A stretch of DNA of 64,000 nt from Natrinema halophilum (GTDB lineage Archaea; Halobacteriota; Halobacteria; Halobacteriales; Natrialbaceae): positions 1,426,001 through 1,490,000 of the forward strand of contig NZ_CP058601.1 in assembly GCF_013402815.2 (NCBI RefSeq). Reading direction: 5' to 3'. The notes under the pieces were generated by a model. The model was not told where the DNA came from. It made no database searches and saw only the letters and a list, made by a program, of their open reading frames with translations. This document shows, piece by piece, positions 49,647 through 51,696 of the stretch. Both the position numbers and the translations under genes were made by a program. Positions within the stretch are counted from its first letter, which is position 1; each line of letters begins with the position of its first letter.

Positions 49647-49955
49647 TTACCATCGCGGCGGTTCGAGCCCCGCGGATTCGAGCAACTCCTTCCAGCGTGA
49701 TTGAATCGACAATCGTGAGACGTCTGCAGCGTCGGCGACAGCACCCTGTGTGCGGCCGTCACCGGCGACGAGCGAACCAGCGTAAACGCTTGCGGCGAGG
49801 ACCGCACGCTTGGATCGATCGGACGCAGGGACGTCGGCGAGGAAAAGATCGATGGCACAAGACCGCGCATCCGGCGAGAGATCCAACCGATCGGCGACGG
49901 TCTCGAGTTCCTCGAGCCACGGTTCGTATTCGACGCGATCCCGGGCGCTGTGCAT
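49647..49955 (-). CDS. Short TFB-like (cyclin-fold) protein
   Basis: A 102-residue protein. It contains a single cyclin-like repeat: ELETVADRLDLSPDARSCAI, then KRAVLAASVYAGSLVAGDG and QGAVADAADVSRLSIQSRWK. It resembles the second repeat of archaeal TFB but lacks the zinc ribbon and B-finger. It may be a transcription-related adaptor. The start at 49955 (MHSARDRVEY) matches the known small haloarchaeal TFIIB-like proteins; the frame upstream is basic. Confidence 0.78.
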   Translation of the reverse strand: MHSARDRVEYEPWLEELETVADRLDLSPDARSCAIDLFLADVPASDRSKRAVLAASVYAGSLVAGDGRTQGAVADAADVSRLSIQSRWKELLESAGLEPPRW

Positions 49956-50190
49956 ACCCGCGAGTATCGGATCGGTGGGGATAAATCTACGGTCGAGACG
50001 ACGCTGCTGATCGATTGGCCGAGTGAGACGCCGCGGAGTCGCCAATAGCGTACTACCGAAGGCAACGTTCAACTACGAATGACTTGGAAAACCGGCCGTT
50101 CTCCATCGATTTCACTAGGAGACGACTACTAAACCCTGCGTCACCCGAAGGAGCGCCTGGCGCCGTCGATCGACGTCGGTTTGCATCCCC

Positions 50191-50364
50191 ATGAAAGAGC
50201 CAACCTGCAAACTCGTCTGTACCGGTTGCGGGCTCGAGATGCCGTATCGGGAGCGGTCGTTGGCCGAACAGGCTGCCGAATTACACCAGCTTCGGGACCC
50301 CGAACACGTGACGTTTATCGTGCCGCCGGACTGGTCGCCCGAAGAACCGGTGAAACACGGGTAA
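50191..50364 (+). CDS. Small Cys-rich zinc-finger-like protein
   Basis: A 57-residue frame starting ATG at 50191 (MKEPTCKLVCTGCGLEMPYR). The CxxxC/CxxC pattern near the N-terminus (C6, C10, C13) plus a late His, in AAELHQLRDPEHV, could ligate zinc. The acidic tail ends PVKHG. Composition is normal for the genome. It lies just upstream of tRNA-Leu. The function is unknown. Confidence 0.65.
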   Translation: MKEPTCKLVCTGCGLEMPYRERSLAEQAAELHQLRDPEHVTFIVPPDWSPEEPVKHG

Positions 50365-50423
50365 GGCGAACCGACGGCGCAGACCGACAGGTTCTTACTC
50401 GAATCGTGAAAACTCGAGGATGC

Positions 50424-50508
50424 GCGCGGGTAGCCAAGCTAGGCCAACGGCGCAGCGCTTAGGACGCTGTCCCGTAGGGGTCCGCCGGTTCGAATCCGGT
50501 CCCGCGCA
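50424..50508 (+). tRNA. tRNA-Leu (anticodon UAG)
   Basis: An 85-nt cloverleaf. The acceptor stem GCGCGGG (50424-50430) pairs with CCCGCGC (50501-50507), with discriminator A at 50508 and no encoded CCA. The anticodon stem CAGCG/CGCTG closes the loop CTTAGGA with anticodon TAG. A long variable arm (TCCCGTAGGGGTCC region) and the T-loop TTCGAAT make it a class II tRNA, hence leucine. Confidence 0.96.
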
Positions 50509-50975
50509 TTGCTGTCGCGAGCAAATCCGCGAGCGACAGCAATCGTCGGCCGGTTCGAAGTAGGGAAGACGCGCGCAGCGTAGCGAGCACGTCTTCACGT
50601 GGTTCGAATCCGGTCCCGCGCATTCTCCGCGAACAAATCCATGAGCAGAGAATGCGGTCAGCGGATTCAAACCCTGGAAGTCGCAGTGCGCGCAGCGAAC
50701 GACGTGAGCGAGTACATCCGTCTTCACGTGGTTCGAATCCGGTCCCGCGCACTGAAACGAGTTTTCGAGCGGAGCGAGAACACGAGTGAAGGAGCAGGAG
50801 CGGGTTCGCGGCCCAGAGGACGTGCGAAGCGAAGTACTCGCGGTTCGAATCCGGTCCCGCGCATGCTTCTTCGAGTGATTTCGCGGAGTTGTCTCGTGCC
50901 AAGAAGTCGCATGAGAGAAGACGAGCACACCGACTCGAGTTGCCGTGGTGGTGTTCGAGTTCCGTCTCACGCACT
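50487..50975 (+). repeat. Cluster of tRNA-Leu 3'-end repeats
   Basis: The last 22 nt of the tRNA (T-loop side of the T-arm, second half of the acceptor stem and discriminator; 50487-50508) recur perfectly at 50601-50622, 50730-50751 and 50842-50863, with a degenerate copy near 50952-50972. Spacers are about 80-110 nt. Hairpins follow the 3' end of copies: 50508-50543 (11-bp stem), 50620-50655 (8-bp stem) and 50761-50781 (7-bp stem with one wobble). The first two share a loop resembling GCGAGCAAATCCGCGAGC. These copies lack the anticodon and D arms, so they are not tRNA genes. Confidence 0.92.
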
Positions 50976-51190
50976 CGAGATGCCATTCCGTGAGGCGGAG
51001 CCGAAATCTGTATTCCTCGAGCATCGACGAGCGGCGCTCCGAATGCGCATGCAATCCGTCCGTCTGAGCCCACCAGATCCGCCCCTGGCCGGCAGAAACG
51101 GAACGAACATCCAGAAGTGGCCGTTGACGGTCAGGGAGGCATGTTCGCGCTTTAATTGTATCGCAGTTTACTTACGCCGTCTGCCGGTGA
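50976..51190. other. Non-coding tail after the tRNA-repeat cluster
   Basis: Two hundred bases between the last tRNA-end copy and the regulator gene. No gene or repeat was recognised. Confidence 0.4.
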
Positions 51191-51451
51191 TTAGCCGTCA
51201 GTTTCCGACAACGTACTCGCGTCGAGTTCCCCCTCGAGATACGAGTTCCCTTCCTCGGAGATCACGTAGAAGCCTCGAGACGGACGCTCGAGTAACCCGT
51301 AGGAGGCGAGTTTGCGGCAGCGAGTCCCGATATAATCATTATTCCGGTCGAGAGCATCTGCGATCACCTTGGGAGTGCCAGCAGTTTCCGATGAGAGGTA
51401 CTCGAGTATCTCGTCGTCTGCCCGCGTCATCCATTCGGCACGCTTTCGCAT
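51191..51451 (-). CDS. PhiH1-like winged-helix repressor
   Basis: An 86-residue wHTH: MRKRAEWMTRADDEILEYL, SSETAGTPKVIADALDRNND, YIGTRCRKLASYGLLERPSR and GFYVISEEGNSYLEGELDAS. It resembles haloarchaeal phage-type repressors, like the gene at 24387. The start at 51451 leaves the palindrome 51460-51474 in the upstream region; starts at 51472 or 51526 would put it inside the gene. It lies next to the tRNA-repeat cluster, a place where integrated elements are common. Confidence 0.75.
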   Translation of the reverse strand: MRKRAEWMTRADDEILEYLSSETAGTPKVIADALDRNNDYIGTRCRKLASYGLLERPSRGFYVISEEGNSYLEGELDASTLSETDG

Positions 51452-51459
51452 CTGTATAG

Positions 51460-51474
51460 CTATGCTGAGCATAG
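51460..51474. promoter_or_regulatory. Palindrome upstream of the PhiH1-like gene
   Basis: CTATGCTGAGCATAG is a perfect 7-bp inverted repeat around one base, 9 bp ahead of the ATG at 51451. A related half-site GCATAG recurs near 51559-51564. This looks like an operator for autoregulation; it is inference. Confidence 0.5.
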
Positions 51475-51696
51475 TTGCATGAAGGTACGCCTTAACAGGT
51501 CTCCTAACCGCTCTAGCAGTTTTCAAATTTTGTAAGGGTGGTCAATAGAACTGCAAAGCATAGTTTTTTGTTATACTACTGTATTGTATGAGATGGCGGG
51601 ACGGCGGACTGGCTACGCCGAATCAGTATCCGCAAAAGTGCAGGCCGGTGCTACCCCACCGACCTGCGTCAGCTCCCGTCTCTATCCACGGAAGCC

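Follow-up and report, generated by a model that had tools for sequence, protein, structure and literature searches.

Tandem hairpin modules with sense and antisense copies of the adjacent tRNA 3' end behind tRNA genes of Halobacteria

Introduction

The tRNA-Leu(UAG) gene of Natrinema halophilum is followed, within about 500 bp, by a row of copies of its own 3' end. The question raised by this locus is what the copies and the sequences between them are. A first-pass annotation of the window (by which we mean the whole 64,000-nucleotide stretch of DNA analysed) offered two descriptions, small elements of one family that use the tRNA end as an attachment site, or RNA structures under selection, and named serial integration by a tRNA-targeting integrase as a process that would leave such a row. 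Here we describe the repeat unit, its distribution and its pairing, and weigh the possible explanations of its origin and role.

Results

Architecture of the ladder

The ladder consists of four adjoining modules located directly 3' of tRNA-Leu(UAG), at positions 50509–50973 of the window (Table 1), and is spanned by four successive matches of the covariance model R1. The first-pass annotation had counted three perfect repeats and one degenerate repeat (16/22) of a 22-nt tRNA-end block, and both the counts and the coordinates were borne out; the measured spacings of the copies are 114, 129, 112 and 110 nt, the last having been given as about 109. Hairpins follow the copies as it had described, and the first two fold into different, fully paired stems with similar loops. 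What it overlooked is that each module also holds an antisense copy of the tRNA end and a second hairpin, and that such modules are spread genome-wide and class-wide.

All intact modules, about 100–130 nt in length, have the same plan: hairpin A, then box B, hairpin C, and copy B'. Hairpin A of module 1 has no equal in strength among the other GA/GA hairpins of the window. Box B is antisense to the 3' end of the module's own tRNA, and B' is the sense copy. According to RNA folding, B pairs with B' over most of the copy, giving a long second hairpin with B as the 5' arm and B' as the 3' arm. The discriminator base of B' is mostly unpaired (it is paired in only ~20% of modules), like that of a tRNA.

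Table 1. Positions of the tRNA gene and the module components in the window
Feature	Position	Strand	Evidence
tRNA-Leu(UAG) gene	50424–50508	+	ARAGORN; Rfam RF00005, 49.2 bits
tRNA-Leu(UAG) 3' end echoed by the modules, GGTTCGAATCCGGTCCCGCGCA	50487–50508	+	last 22 nt
Module 1, 114 nt	50509–50622	+	covariance model, 118.5 bits; part of training set
Hairpin A of module 1, TTGCTGTCGC-GA-loop-GA-GCGACAGCAA	50509–50542	+	fold
Box B of module 1, GGCCGGTTCGAA, antisense to the 3' half of the tRNA T-arm	50548–50559	+	fold and covariation
Hairpin C of module 1, GAAGACG...CGTCTTC	50565–50596	+	fold; helix 3 of the covariation test
Copy B' 1, 22/22 against the tRNA 3' end	50601–50622	+	
Module 2, 129 nt	50623–50751	+	covariance model, 74.6 bits; outside training set
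Copy B' 2, 22/22	50730–50751	+	
Module 3, 112 nt, weaker	50752–50863	+	covariance model match 50762–50863, 26.0 bits, E 0.0011; outside training set
Copy B' 3, 22/22	50842–50863	+	
Module 4, 110 nt, decayed	50864–50973	+	covariance model match 50867–50973, 21.7 bits, E 0.0077; outside training set
Copy B' 4, 16/22	50952–50973	+	

The ladder contains no integrase gene, as noted earlier, and no Pfam integrase match was found anywhere in the window. The downstream winged helix-turn-helix gene reported in the first-pass annotation (51191–51526, minus strand) is confirmed by a match to phrog_2440, a transcriptional regulator; no tie between this gene and the ladder was found. Two minus-strand open reading frames across the ladder (within 50395–51073; 219 and 204 aa), in which CAGPDSN and GTGFEP peptides recur, were rejected as genes, because they are antisense readings of the tRNA 3' end in overlapping frames. 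Spurious reading frames with these peptides may be annotated as proteins elsewhere. Upstream of tRNA-Leu(UAG), a 141-aa reading frame (49647–50072, minus strand) contains one TFIIB repeat (PF00382, E 1.4e-6) and encodes a putative short TFB-like protein.

Distribution across tRNA genes and genomes

The N. halophilum genome (4.84 Mb, three contigs) contains 45 tRNAs according to the Rfam tRNA model, 44 of them usable for the analysis. Defining an own-end copy by at least 17/22 identity within 40–260 nt downstream of the tRNA, we found such copies at 14 of the 44 tRNAs: Leu-UAG, Ser-UGA, Arg-CCU, Tyr, Met, Gly-UCC, both Lys, Gly-GCC, Val-UAC, Glu-UUC, Pro-UGG, His and Arg-GCG. The ends of other tRNAs reach the same threshold in 2.0% of trials; hence, the own-end copies are not due to chance. 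The second fully mapped genome, from another family, has copies at 13 of 45 tRNAs. Its set of tRNAs overlaps the first only partly, so that no single tRNA needs a module. No own-end copies were found at 45 tRNAs of non-haloarchaeal Halobacteriota.

Among named genomes, 74 of the 114 Leu-UAG genes with sufficient flanking sequence have at least one copy, and Val-UAC genes across the order follow the same pattern. Species with modules at the loci analysed include Haloarcula vallismortis, Haloarcula argentinensis, Natronococcus amylolyticus and Halococcus morrhuae. In a phylum sample of 120 genomes searched with strict filters, model R1 has matches in 18 of 19 Halobacteriales genomes and in no genome outside Halobacteriales; thus, within the genomes sampled, the module family is limited to Halobacteria. 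Strong R1 matches in N. halophilum sit behind tRNAs. As a description, the idea of a small-element family that uses tRNA ends was apt: modules of unit length are common to several tRNAs.

One tRNA-Gly(UCC) with a module and further A-type hairpins resides on the 828-kb plasmid NZ_CP031306 of Natronorubrum bangense (locus L330, 3952–4200), for which the gene table of the plasmid lists nothing.

Matching of modules to their own tRNAs

The antisense box may be as long as in Halorubrum sp. CBA1125 (locus L083), where box B is a perfect 21-nt antisense copy, TGCGCGGGACCGGATTCGAAC. Across modules, the tRNA position R57 and the facing pyrimidine of box B covary (G/C 68, G/T 3, A/C 3, A/T 18; Fisher p = 2.7e-13, a value inflated by kinship, as are all p values given here: the tRNA-matching statistics take in related species and overstate the independent evidence). 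The duplex energy of the module interior with the end of its own tRNA is better than the mean for other tRNAs in 20 of 21 tRNA kinds, the exception being Asp. Where the last 22 nt of a tRNA depart from the isoacceptor consensus, the departure is common to tRNA and copy in 32 of 39 cases. Ungapped antisense matching of box B gave weak support only; it was replaced by duplex energies and the direct two-column test, because box B is often one base short.

Hairpin A and the GA/GA motif

A stem of at least 6 bp flanking GA...GA was identified in 59% of 126 modules, compared to 1.4% of dinucleotide shuffles, and 50 different stem sequences were observed. Substitution of other dinucleotides for GA yielded 0–14 matches versus 74 for GA itself. 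The base preceding the second GA is C in 38, U in 34 and G in 2 hairpins (C or U in 72 of 74). Within 0.9 Mb around Leu loci, the density of GA/GA hairpins downstream of tRNAs is ~12 times that found elsewhere. With 38 instances near tRNAs against 2 of the complementary TC form, the GA form identifies the tRNA-sense strand as the folding strand. Hairpin A has no counterpart in the tRNA, and the combination of 50 different paired stems with a GA/GA motif fixed on one strand requires selection on the folded strand.

The L7Ae sites known as kink-turns and k-loops are built on a tandem G-A pair plan (PMC5539422). The modules resemble them in the stem adjoining tandem GA/GA and may differ from them in the base before the second GA, where C is as frequent as U. 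By this analogy, hairpin A is a predicted k-loop-like motif that could bind L7Ae.

Compensatory pairing

Covariation was tested in an alignment of 28 modules from several tRNAs on a named structure of 26 pairs; these modules had been picked for having a GA hairpin, a choice that favours helix 1 (the A stem) and not helices 2 and 3. The bases are paired in 90.6% of cells, and 18 of the 26 pairs are altered on both sides. Double changes occupy 130 cells, versus 41 (sd 6) in shuffles and 17–32 in slid controls, and the covariation score is 0.503 versus 0.055–0.116 in slid controls. Cells with G-U outnumber those with A-C, by 16:5 in hairpin A and by 70:17 in B-B', which fits RNA better than DNA.

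Taken with the box B that tracks the tRNA sequence and the one-strand motif, these compensatory pairs strongly support the earlier suggestion of RNA structures under selection. The first-pass annotation had proposed a search of the genome and related haloarchaea together with a test of stem covariation, and had named as counter-evidence units present nowhere else and lacking conserved pairing. Quite the opposite is observed: the units occur throughout the genome and the class, and pairing is kept by compensatory change.

Gain, loss and reassortment of modules

Families of hairpins A and C combine freely: one A family occurs with 12 C families, and one C family occurs with 15 A families at 9 tRNA kinds. 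Between related species, entire modules are present or absent within matching flanks, as seen for Haloarcula sebkhae and H. amylolytica (offset 121); two Val loci, L234 and L239, likewise show a unit-length difference (offset 120). Behind a tRNA-Phe (genome G146, locus L358, 404–768) there are three 121-nt copies with 122-nt spacing and an identical model score, likely a recent tandem duplication. Recombination between repeated tRNA ends explains both module loss and tandem gain. Many modules are decayed, and the occupancy of tRNAs varies.

Transcription signals

In the 30 nt behind module-less tRNAs the T content is 0.259, compared with 0.137 within modules and 0.232 downstream of the last copy. 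Runs of four T occur in the first 80 nt behind 19 of 127 tRNAs with modules versus 55 of 159 without (p = 2e-4), and TATA-like motifs are nearly absent in modules. These patterns lend mild support to transcription of the modules as part of the tRNA unit. We rejected T runs behind the last copy as proof of termination, since their rise over the module interior is not significant (p = 0.15).

Integrases, islands and displaced modules

Among the 40 Leu-UAG genes without a copy, 11 have a tyrosine integrase gene directly behind the tRNA, starting at a distance of 25–62 nt. At four other Leu loci (L168, L197, L060 and L066, none of them the window ladder) a homologous integrase gene starts 17–57 nt behind a module copy. 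Three of these integrases were tested, including the one behind the copy in L197, and match Pfam Phage_integrase. Judging by gene position, module copies can apparently serve as att sites. The pairs L147/L150 versus L168 and L096 versus L060 were considered as clean empty host sites and rejected, as the shared flank is the integrase gene; for the same reason these loci are cases of integration, either at the tRNA or at the copy. The family of tyrosine integrases targeting Leu tRNAs was observed at loci L147, L150, L096, L106, L168, L197 and L060.

In N. halophilum, four R1 matches (E 4e-9, 4e-6, 0.002 and 0.006) follow remnants of tRNA 3' ends instead of tRNAs (loci L352–L355; G000:C1:1926641, 3878920, 3812141 and 2013300). 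Each lies ~0.5 kb from a tyrosine integrase gene and 6.5–48.5 kb downstream of the matching tRNA, in the same orientation. The corresponding islands, of 6.5, 48.5, 20 and 14 kb, are located at tRNA-Ala (Ala-CGC), tRNA-Phe, tRNA-Met and tRNA-Ser (Ser-GGA), respectively. The four modules have thus been pushed away by integrated elements, and they mark the far ends of the islands. Both ends of the tRNA-Met island carry similar modules (G000:C1:3792201–3792301 and 3812141–3812241); the integrating element may have carried a module in its attachment arm. True islands at tRNA ends of this genome have an integrase gene and are bounded by tRNA-end remnants, 14–24 nt contiguous where measured.

A free mobile form of the module was not found in phage and plasmid collections, which yielded tRNA matches and the plasmid tRNA-Gly with a module mentioned above. 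Haloviruses of the HSTV-2/HRTV/HCTV group contain an unannotated stretch with 84% identity to tRNA-Leu positions 18–86 (e.g. KC117376, 49622–49688). On plasmid NZ_CP084091 of Halomicrobium urmianum (locus L331, 2001–2100), a site-specific integrase gene is preceded, at a distance of 45 nt, by 56 nt matching the 3' part of tRNA-Leu; this stretch is likely an attP, longer than the 22-nt module copy.

Discussion

We consider it somewhat probable that the ladder encodes a structured 3' trailer of the pre-tRNA transcript, built as a tandem array of modules. The modules would be transcribed together with the tRNA, and tRNase Z would cut after each B', yielding small structured RNAs besides the tRNA. 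Such cutting behind B' is plausible, since both tRNase Z and RNase P of Haloferax volcanii cleave tRNA-like elements (PMC4946936). Recombination between the recurring tRNA ends would lengthen or shorten arrays and exchange modules, and the copies could be kept matched to the tRNA by recombination or template switching. It is also conceivable, if quite unlikely in our estimate, that the module is a self-tailoring RNA switch, with box B alternating between two partners: pairing with the tRNA 3' end would keep the tRNA from folding and maturing, and pairing with B' would free it. In that event, about one third of the tRNA genes in an archaeal class would be under individual maturation control, built from swappable hairpin modules.

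Alternatively, the modules could be minute mobile DNA cassettes, with the hairpins and the tRNA-end copy as recombination sites, that tyrosine integrases of larger elements move in trans or carry in attachment arms. The unit-length differences between related species, the similar modules behind the tRNA and the far remnant of the 20-kb tRNA-Met island, the integrase genes behind module copies in four loci, and the A and C families common to different tRNA kinds all speak for such cassettes. We regard them as an unlikely explanation, however, since the modules have no integrase of their own, the phage and plasmid collections yielded no free form, target duplication yields a direct copy and not an antisense box B, and the GA motif and the tolerance of G-U indicate RNA. 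Neutral repeats are another proposal: functionless arrays would be built and homogenised by template switching at quasi-palindromes and by recombination of short repeats with one another. Inverted copies can stay matched through template switching, modules are easily lost when direct 22-nt copies recombine, occupancy varies, and many modules are decayed. We give this little credence, given a hairpin A that has no counterpart in the tRNA and yet keeps the same plan with its many paired stems and one-strand GA/GA, and given the persistence of modules across the class.

Integrases enter two further explanations. The copies might be decoy landing sites that draw integrases off the tRNA gene, in line with the short distances of integrase genes from copies and from copy-less tRNAs at the Leu loci. 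Little would be gained, as the tRNA is normally restored upon integration at its end; a decoy requires neither box B nor hairpins; and four elements in this genome integrated upstream of the module, at the tRNA itself. A decoy role thus seems very unlikely. The serial integration and decay of elements, leaving a row of att cores, had been suggested in the first-pass annotation and is extremely improbable as the origin. The copies do correspond to the tRNA segment used by integrases, and integrated elements at tRNA ends are present in the genome, but the remains would have to converge on ~100–130 nt and one two-hairpin plan at dozens of tRNAs in many families, with the constant plan and compensatory pairing found in the modules, whereas true islands here extend over 6.5–48.5 kb and have integrase genes. 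The fixed two-hairpin plan, the absence of genes in the modules and the pairing kept by compensation mean that the link to integrases is one of interplay, not of module origin.

The presence of the element in 18 of the 19 sampled Halobacteriales genomes and at about one third of the tRNA genes in the two mapped genomes implies that it probably touches tRNA maturation or tRNA-gene stability across an archaeal class. Several questions thereby become testable: where haloarchaeal tRNA transcripts end, whether tRNase Z has products beyond tRNAs, and how integrases choose between tRNAs and copies. Displaced modules in addition serve as markers for the far ends of integrated islands in N. halophilum.

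Comparison with known systems

The closest known arrangement is that of the Escherichia coli tyrT repeats and the rtT RNA, where tandem repeats behind a tRNA gene each contain the tRNA 3' end. The rtT RNA is released upon processing of the precursor, and the system is confined to one enterobacterial locus with a unit of 178 bp. We know of no antisense box in the rtT repeats. The haloarchaeal modules share with rtT a tandem repeat unit holding the 3' end of the tRNA just upstream, and differ from it in being found at many tRNAs of a whole archaeal class, in being matched each to its own tRNA, and in having two conserved hairpins. A cmscan of 50000–51600 against Rfam, with E up to 1, retrieved the tRNA only and no match to the RtT family.

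The t-elements of Haloferax volcanii (Hoelzle et al. 2012, as cited in PMC7714728) are, like the modules, haloarchaeal non-tRNA sequences that resemble tRNA; cutting is known for t-elements and only proposed for modules. The t-elements are tRNA-shaped, whereas in the modules only the T-loop and 3' strand are retained and the 5' strand is new. Accordingly, the modules are not tRNA-like enough to be found by ARAGORN or the Rfam tRNA model, whose sole find was the tRNA gene itself. The att repeats of elements integrated at tRNA genes (reviewed in PMC8371274) are likewise direct repeats of a tRNA 3' end, and the modules, by their position at four other loci, may be usable by integrases. In contrast to att repeats, the modules have no element or integrase between the repeats, a fixed short length, an antisense box and paired hairpins.

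A structured element with sense and antisense copies of the preceding tRNA was found neither in Rfam nor in the open-access literature, the scope of our search, so that an earlier description in subscription journals is possible. The feature that sets the modules apart is the sense-plus-antisense tailoring to each tRNA; if any repeat of a tRNA end were counted as one kind, they would be a variant of the rtT kind.
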